Shown here: positions 12,601-24,708 of the stretch, piece after piece
How the letters are laid out: every line of letters begins with the position of its first letter
How positions within the stretch are numbered: position 1 is the first letter of the stretch
Source of the DNA: Haloterrigena salina JCM 13891
GTDB lineage: Archaea; Halobacteriota; Halobacteria; Halobacteriales; Natrialbaceae
Length of the DNA stretch: 54,559 nt
NCBI RefSeq assembly: GCF_000337495.1
Contig: NZ_AOIS01000064.1
Span: 1-54,559, forward strand
Reading direction: 5' to 3'
Notes under the pieces: model-generated
Told to the model about the DNA's origin: nothing
What the model saw: the letters and a program-made list of their open reading frames with translations, nothing else
Database searches by the model: none
Program-made: the position numbers and the translations under genes

Positions 12601-12840
12601 ATGGCAACTGATACCGCTTCCGGATCGAACCACGAATCGAATCGCAATCGTCGAACCGTCCGCGGCTTCGTGAGTACCGTCCTTCGCCTCCTGGTCGACC
12701 TGCTCGTCGCCACGGCCTGGGTCGTCTTCCTGACGCTGTTTTTCCTCGAGGTCGCGTGGCCACGGTGGGCGTTTTACGCGCTGCTCATCGCCGGGATCGG
12801 CGTCTACGTCACCGTTACGGCGGCGTGGCGTCGCGATTGA
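12601..12840 (+). CDS. Small two-TM membrane protein
   Basis: 79 residues: a polar Asn/Arg-rich N-terminus, then two hydrophobic helices (about 27-50 and 56-73) ending in the basic AAWRRD. GC-ending codon use and a compact ORF support a true gene. The function is unknown. The 86-bp inverted-repeat element begins one base after its stop codon, so the element may have inserted into its 3' flank. Confidence 0.65.
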   Translation: MATDTASGSNHESNRNRRTVRGFVSTVLRLLVDLLVATAWVVFLTLFFLEVAWPRWAFYALLIAGIGVYVTVTAAWRRD

Positions 12841-12841
12841 A

Positions 12842-12927
12842 CTGTAGTAGCCGCTGAAACGAATTACACACTGATCGCACTGCCGTCATGCGATCAGGTA
12901 TGCATTGACTTTCAGTGGCTACTATAG
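12842..12927 (+). mobile_element. 86-bp MITE-like element, copy 1
   Basis: Terminal inverted repeats CTGTAGTAGCCGCTGAAA (left) and TTTCAGTGGCTACTATAG (right) pair with two mismatches, and an inner perfect inverted repeat CTGATCGCA/TGCGATCAG surrounds a 9-nt centre. A second element of exactly the same length lies at 24521-24606 in the opposite orientation and is similar over its full length. There is no coding capacity. No clear target-site duplication is visible. It looks like a non-autonomous element mobilised in trans, or a structured regulatory repeat. Confidence 0.7.
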
Positions 12928-12948: not shown

Positions 12949-13818
12949 TTACTCGAGCGTCTCCTCGAGTCGATCGATCAGATCGGCGTTACCGATGTGG
13001 ACCGGCGTCCGGTCGTGTAACGTGTCGGGCTCGACGGACAGCAGCGACTTGCCGCCGTTCGAGGACCGTCCCCCGGCGCGTTCGATGACGTAGCCGATGG
13101 GGTTGCCCTCGAACTGCAGCCGCAGTTTGCCTTCCGGACTGGACTCGAGGGCGGGGTACGCGAAGACCCCGCCGTAGGTGAGCACCTGGTTGACGTCGGC
13201 GATCATCGCGCCGCCATAGCGGAGCTTGAGATCGTCCTCGACCTCGCGGGCGTAGCGCTCGAAGTCCGCGGGCCAGTCGGGGACGCGGCCGCCGAAGCCG
13301 TAGACGACCGGTTCGTCGGGCAGGGCGATGTCCCGCTCGATGAGTTGCCGTTCGCCGCCGGTCATCTCGTACTCGGCGACGGTCTCTTCGGTGGCGATCA
13401 CCATCGTCGTGATCGGCCCGTAGAGGACGTAGCCGGCCGCGATCAGGTCCTCGCCCGGAGCCGGCAGCGCGGCGTCGTAGACGCCGAAGATCGTCCCCAT
13501 AGCGTTGTTGGACCTGAGATTCGAGGAGCCGTCCAGCGGGTCGACAGCGACCGCGTAGGCGTCGCTCGAGTCAGGGTCTTCGCCGCAGTCGATGGCTTCG
13601 GGGCGCTCCTCGCTGGCGTACTGCCCGACGCCGTCGATCGCGGCGAGGCGCTCGCCGAGCATCTCGTCGGCCCAGACGTCGGCTTCCATCTGGGTCTCGC
13701 CGCTGGGGTTCTCCTCGTCGACGGCGCCGCGGCGGCCGATGAGCCCCTGCGTGATCTCGGTCGCCGACCGACTGATGGTGGCGACGACGTCCTCGACAAC
13801 TGGATCGGACACCGTCAT
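12949..13818 (-). CDS. fbp: Class I fructose-1,6-bisphosphatase
   Basis: Hydrolyses fructose 1,6-bisphosphate to fructose 6-phosphate, the committed step of gluconeogenesis. The 289-residue length suits archaeal class I FBPases. The metal-binding core DPLDGSSNL lies near residue 92, the acidic residues EERPE and GETQMEAD precede it, and GGVFAYPA with GNPIGYVIERAGG form the C-terminal substrate region. The start codon lies one base after the aldolase stop, so the two genes are certainly co-transcribed and probably translationally coupled. Confidence 0.93.
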   Translation of the reverse strand: MTVSDPVVEDVVATISRSATEITQGLIGRRGAVDEENPSGETQMEADVWADEMLGERLAAIDGVGQYASEERPEAIDCGEDPDSSDAYAVAVDPLDGSSNLRSNNAMGTIFGVYDAALPAPGEDLIAAGYVLYGPITTMVIATEETVAEYEMTGGERQLIERDIALPDEPVVYGFGGRVPDWPADFERYAREVEDDLKLRYGGAMIADVNQVLTYGGVFAYPALESSPEGKLRLQFEGNPIGYVIERAGGRSSNGGKSLLSVEPDTLHDRTPVHIGNADLIDRLEETLE

Positions 13819-24329: not shown

Positions 24330-24708
24330 CGGACGATCGGACTCGAGCGGTCCCGTCGGCCGCCTCGGAGTCAAGCGGTTCGAGAGACCCCAGTCTCTCA
24401 TCCGGGGCACTCGGCTTGCTCCGCCTGTAGACACGACTATCCCGCAGCGGTCGCAACACCTTCGGACGACCCCCGACTCCGCCTTATGGAGGCGCTCCGC
24501 CACAGTACTGCTCGCACAGCCGATAGTAGCCACTGAAAGTCACTGCACACTCGATCGCAGGACGGCTTCGCGATCGGTGTATAATTCGTTTCAGTGGCTA
24601 CTATAGCTCCACGTCGGCCTTTCGGCCGCGTGAACGGGCACTGTTCAGCGTCGTCGACGATGGTCGTATGGAAAGAGTGATGTGTTGTTCATGATTATCG
24701 TAGTGAAT
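24330..24708. other. Intergenic region with hairpin and repeat element
   Basis: No gene is visible. A 7-bp hairpin GAGAGAC/GTCTCTC with loop CCCA lies at 24382-24399. The second 86-bp MITE-like element occupies 24521-24606. The remainder, including the 100 bases before the acyl-CoA ligase, shows no clear TATA box at the expected spacing. Confidence 0.5.
24521..24606 (-). mobile_element. 86-bp MITE-like element, copy 2
   Basis: Read on the minus strand this copy begins CTATAGTAGCCACTGAAA and ends TTTCAGTGGCTACTATCG, with an inner inverted repeat around CGATCGC/GCGATCG. It is the same length as copy 1 (12842-12927), in inverted orientation, and aligns without gaps; the shared outer ends and GAAACGAATTA block are nearly identical while the centre varies. 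Compensating changes in the inner stem suggest that the folded form matters. Confidence 0.7.

Follow-up and report, generated by a model that had tools for sequence, protein, structure and literature searches.

The window considered here, a stretch of 54,559 nucleotides from contig NZ_AOIS01000064.1 of Haloterrigena salina JCM 13891, carries a repeat of 86 bp between a small ORF and a downstream convergent gene for fructose-1,6-bisphosphatase (Table 1). The TGA stop codon of the ORF is formed by positions 12838-12840 and the 86-mer starts one base later, just as a preceding sequence-only reading of this DNA had described it. The outer and inner arms of 18 and 9 bp given in that reading were also found, the outer pair being complementary at 89%, and the absence of evident coding capacity is in line with the fact that the only ORFs overlapping copy 1 are mechanical ones of 57 and 62 aa. 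The second copy, said to be inverted and of the same length, is present as described, and the arm pattern with up to three mismatches gives four matches in the window compared to 0.00 expected from 100 shuffles.

Table 1. Copy 1 of the repeat, its parts and its surroundings (positions of the window)
Feature	Position	Strand	Basis
Copy 1, 86-bp repeat C-TG-[80 bp]-TA-G	12842..12927	+	arm pattern; covariance-model score 96.8 bits
Copy 1, putative element proper, 80 bp (TAGTAGCCGCTGAAA...TTTCAGTGGCTACTA)	12845..12924	+	bounds inferred from empty sites of other copies
Copy 1, left outer arm, 18 bp	12842..12859	+	
Copy 1, right outer arm, 16/18 complementary to left arm	12910..12927	+	
Copy 1, inner stem, left half, 9 bp	12871..12879	+	
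Copy 1, inner stem, right half, 9/9 complementary to left half	12889..12897	+	
Copy 2, 86 bp, orientation opposite to copy 1	24521..24606	-	covariance-model score 96.0 bits
Flanking 79-aa ORF, small, membrane-like	12601..12840	+	no Pfam match
Flanking convergent fructose-1,6-bisphosphatase gene	12949..13818	-	PF00316, PF18913

The proposal that the two copies belong to a dispersed family was borne out by a search with a covariance model. In the genome of H. salina itself there are 16 matches which correspond to nine places, as the palindrome scores on both strands, and other model match counts likewise include both strands. Across the order, the model matches 154 of 392 sampled Halobacteriales genomes and 40 of 95 genera; as no more than 11 candidates were scored in each genome, these numbers stand for presence, not for copy number. 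An exact 18-mer scan of GTDB genomes returned at least 120 stretches, with most of the matches listed coming from genera such as Natrinema, Natrialba and Natronorubrum, and arm counts suggest tens of copies in all six genomes counted. Matches are also found in 54 plasmid records, while the phage records searched gave none; in 30 of the 33 annotated plasmid records listed, the best place falls outside every listed gene. The repeat is thus short, multicopy, devoid of a transposase gene and bounded by terminal inverted repeats, which are the features of a MITE. In one genome (G258, on C1 and C2), some 20 copies share the symmetric arms TATAGTAGCAACTGAAA, and eight or more of them have an identical model score; this is a recent burst without a visible enzyme. 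At seven loci of draft assemblies (L056, L071, L117, L091, L107, L299 and L303), head-to-tail pairs of elements or IS ends stand beside N and are probably scaffolding artefacts at repeats.

Mobility can be read from sites at which relatives lack the repeat. The joined flanks were searched against a single genus (29 genomes) and against the family (124 genomes), and 40 of the best spanning hits, representing 23 occupied sites, were aligned, a choice that favours closely related genomes whose flanks are intact. At 19 of the 23 sites, the empty site is legible as 4 bp in the closest readable relative, with the four illegible ones (L049, L026, L053 and L069) counted as misses. The comparison of occupied and empty sites suggested by the sequence-only reading yields CTAG or, more generally, NTAN in most readable cases, and the coexistence of both states marks the MITE as mobile. 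The 19 sites comprise CTAG nine times and ATAG, CTAA and a CTAC-like site once each (12 NTAN), followed by CCAG four times and CTGG, TTGG and CGAG once each; 18 of them are at most one transition away from NTAN. As CTAG is rare in the window, with 16 occurrences compared to 62.8 expected, the CTAG empty sites indicate a strong preference. Where the flanks of the pair compared are 94-98% identical, L024, L081 and L078 have CTAG as their empty site and L027 has CTAA, whose outer bases are the same as those of the copy. The sites outside NTAN fit a decay of CTAG, an avoided word, with direct support at L081 only, where CTAG is seen in the nearest relative and CCAG in another two.

The end bases of the 86-mer are the outer bases of the target, a copy with C...A having CTAA as its empty site and a copy with A...G having ATAG. 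Because of this match, the repeat would be best described as C-TA-[80 bp]-TA-G in a CTAG-like target, with a putative element of 80 bp (TAGTA...TACTA). To judge by the empty sites at other loci with the repeat, the last base at either end of the 86-mer and the dinucleotide next to it appear to be derived from the target, and it is for this reason that the element proper of copy 1 is given the bounds in Table 1, its left TG apparently being a mutated TA. Each insertion results in a net gain of 82 bp. One TA is present in the empty and two in the occupied state, which fits a TA duplication and an insertion of 82 bp carrying one TA alike. No target duplication outside the 86-mer was seen beyond permutations (shifts 0-3, sizes 2-10), a test that is blind to a duplication within the fixed ends.

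The length of the repeat is kept over considerable distances. Exactly 86 bp are spanned by 100 of 122 paired arms and, outside the family of the window, by the repeat at 27 of 31 places (30 genomes), 18 of these 27 matching the family consensus at 44-61 of 86 bases (51-71%). Variants of 114-137 bp have a longer apical hairpin or an insert. Pairing is kept as well: in 91 copies, 78 cells, almost all located within the inner stem, are changed on both sides where shuffles give 25.6. A set of 32 diverse copies shows two-sided change at 20 of 31 pairs versus 11.0 in shuffles, with a covariation score above all slid controls; both the shuffled and the slid controls leave the relatedness of the copies in. 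In the diverse set, helix 1 is paired in 96.5% of cells, and the outer arms covary between lineages (for example ACTGAAA, ATTGAAA, GTTTGCAAC and AAATTGAAA). It is unusual that a length of 86 bp is retained at 51-71% identity and that outer arms and inner stem both covary. Distant relatives at L346, L350 and L351 (element start 1501 in each) begin with TGATAG, and two of the three end in CTATGA; the bases flanking them repeat TGA instead of TA, possibly indicating a subfamily with another target. A further group, L296:2360-2470, L338:1501-1614 and L353:1501-1616, combines TCGTTGAA arms with a longer apical hairpin and is closer to the IS630 ends described below.

At fixed sites the structure behaves differently from the alignment of diverse copies. 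Copy 1 has an occupied orthologue in one congener (G332). In two others the site is readable but holds no intact element, showing CTAA plus three extra bases (G249) and CTAG plus six extra bases that may be a remnant of the element (G240); the site is illegible in two further congener genomes. Another copy of the same genome (L002, C45:152635-152720) has TCAG as its empty site in four of four congeners, which does not fully account for its flanks, one having TA and the opposite one CA. Among the genus relatives, a third copy (L003) gave no clean empty-site reading and copy 2 no spanning hit. Four comparisons of orthologous copies, made at three sites, gave differences at 5/85, 5/86, 5/86 and 4/86 bases in the element and at 20/360, 11/359, 10/359 and 18/360 in the flanks, or 4.7-5.9% compared to 2.8-5.6%. 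Several of the changes in the element break pairs and none is compensatory, with pair changes in the copy of the window judged by eye. Since the element drifts like its flanks without compensation, the covariation arises in mobile lineages and not at fixed loci.

This drift bears directly on the possibility of a conserved RNA or transcription terminator that is repeated by chance, for which the covarying structure and the position of copy 1 between convergent genes, adjoining a stop codon, could be cited. Orthologous sites are empty, orthologous copies diverge at the rate of their flanks and lose pairs, and the sole Rfam match is MIR537 with 22.2 bits against a cut-off of 100, all of which makes this explanation extremely improbable. 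A fixed terminator in particular is ruled out by the flank-rate drift together with the empty sites, so that the earlier statement that copy 1 is no local terminator stands: further copies abound, and conservation of the site is only partial, extending to one congener.

The predicted DNA hairpins are strong, with z of -5.3 to -11.1 in six of six folds, which raises the question of whether the hairpin is moved as folded single-stranded DNA by a Y1 (HUH) transposase in the manner of REP/REPIN elements. These are short palindromes with GTAG near the foot and a mostly intergenic position (PMC3733652), and GTAG, which is the tag of a REP superfamily, also occurs in the ends of the MITE. The covariation of both stems and the constant length would also suit such a process. 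The repeat studied here is set apart by its 86 bp, its flanking TA, its CTAG target and its IS630-like ends, and as TA on both sides and a CTAG target match an actual IS630 group in haloarchaea, movement by a Y1 enzyme seems very unlikely.

IS630 elements target CTAG with duplication of TA. Haloarchaea have IS630 elements with a length of roughly 1.06 kb and a DDE_3 transposase, annotated as ISNma7 and ISNpe3; their ends are TATAGTAGNCGTTAGAAATAATTGCTCAC / TATAGTAACCGTTAGAA..., and the base immediately beyond either end is mostly C. They share with the MITE the CTAG-like target, TA on both sides (12 of 19 empty sites of the MITE being NTAN), the first eight bases TATAGTAR, a related 3' end and the tendency of one end to read TAG and the other TAA, while differing from it in size, in having a transposase, in the sequence around nt 9-16 and in that no inner hairpin was noted. 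In gapped alignments past the first eight bases, the IS 3' end beats all but 0-0.2% of 2000 shuffles with some MITE ends, namely the right f1 end with L354 and L359 and both f5 ends with L254, L354 and L359, and several end pairs thus lie at or below 0.002, as expected of an IS630 derivative. The left f1 end is marginal (p 0.08-0.19), a value of 0.003 was likewise obtained when an f5 end was paired with the end of an IS630 element from an unrelated group (L249), and p ranged from 0.003 to 0.10 when f1 MITE ends were compared to IS ends without gaps. The variant MITE end TATAGTAGTCGTTGAAAC bridges to the IS ends TATAGTAGTCGTTAGAAA. An insertion sequence with the same ends, which the sequence-only reading had advised looking for, was found in part: the ISNma7/ISNpe3 type has the same target, and its ends are related to those of the MITE without being identical.

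Within the family, the transposase is found in 44 of 80 MITE-positive compared to 3 of 16 MITE-negative genomes (Fisher p 0.012). Neither the genome of the window (G000) nor eight of the 12 copy-bearing genomes outside the family have a PF13358 match, the only DDE_3 transposase of G258 is truncated, and no IS630 with exactly the arms of the MITE was found. The missing PF13358 matches, together with MITE arms that vary between genera where the IS ends keep ...TTAGAARTAATTGCTCAC, would suit movement by a transposase outside the ISNma7 group, either an undetected TA-specific DDE enzyme or one encoded by the host, with the likeness to IS630 reflecting old descent or convergence on the target. The shared target and first eight bases, the significant similarity at the 3' end and the positive association within the family argue against this, as do the mobile MITEs without functional transposase that are reported in Haloquadratum (PMC3119063), and an enzyme of this kind appears unlikely, if worth bearing in mind.

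Three loci that at first sight resemble a full-length transposon with MITE arms (L244:1363-2504, L266:1363-2504 and L247:797-2009) are in fact IS630 elements nested in MITE copies, all at the same inner position; in L247 the nested element has the opposite orientation, and the inner site resembles CTAG in that MITE variant. No full-length transposon with the same 18-bp arms occurs in the fetched loci or in 12 stretches of G258. Other IS630 groups (L249, L250 and their copies) are rejected as a parent as their ends differ (ATAC...).

The explanation we favour, with a probability of roughly 0.8 on the sequence evidence, is that the repeat is a MITE mobilised in trans by an IS630-type transposase. 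Both arms of the MITE would be inverted versions of the IS end of the ISNma7/ISNpe3 group, the transposase would bind these arms and move the element by cut-and-paste, and copies would build up between genes as insertions into genes are lost, with the pairing of arms and inner stem presumably maintained in mobile lineages and not at single loci. The constant length and the covariation of the inner stem exceed what recognition of terminal repeats needs and count against this explanation. They may be accommodated by a MITE in which transposition involves recognition of the folded hairpin as such, including the outer arms, the inner stem and the fixed spacing. In that case the sequence of the arms would drift between genera while pairing and 86 bp are kept, and the element could spread even without a matching IS630, perhaps by means of an enzyme encoded by the host; taken as a whole, such dependence on structure is improbable.

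For the preferred reading, in which an IS630-type enzyme acts on the MITE in trans, there are parallels among known systems. RUP of Streptococcus pneumoniae has been proposed to be moved by the transposase of IS630-Spn1, and RUP as well as the Correia/NEMIS elements are likewise short and gene-free, with ends that are inverted and have a terminal TA; RUP differs in being bacterial, 107 bp long and bounded by a 9-bp terminal repeat, a comparison made by description (PMC2229807). The MITEs and SMRs of Haloquadratum walsbyi are short haloarchaeal elements with prominent inverted ends in up to tens of copies, and one SMR, HqIRS41, has 80 bp; SMRs are set apart by the reported lack of a target duplication and by ends unlike any transposon (PMC3119063). 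A literature search for the arm sequences returned only an unrelated virus paper by way of an 11-mer, and the literature searched, whose scope lies outside ISfinder and most subscription journals, contains no description of the element. It is widespread and, as far as this literature goes, undescribed, in a class that is already known.

These findings account for a repeat in 40 of 95 sampled Halobacteriales genera and tie it to a named group of transposons, as a mobile element aimed at CTAG, a tetranucleotide which these genomes avoid. Annotators gain a model by which intergenic repeats so far left without a label can be named, and the element offers a compact substrate for tests of IS630 transposition in genetically tractable haloarchaea. 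Its constant length and the covariation of two stems raise the testable question of whether the fold is read in transposition or the ends suffice.
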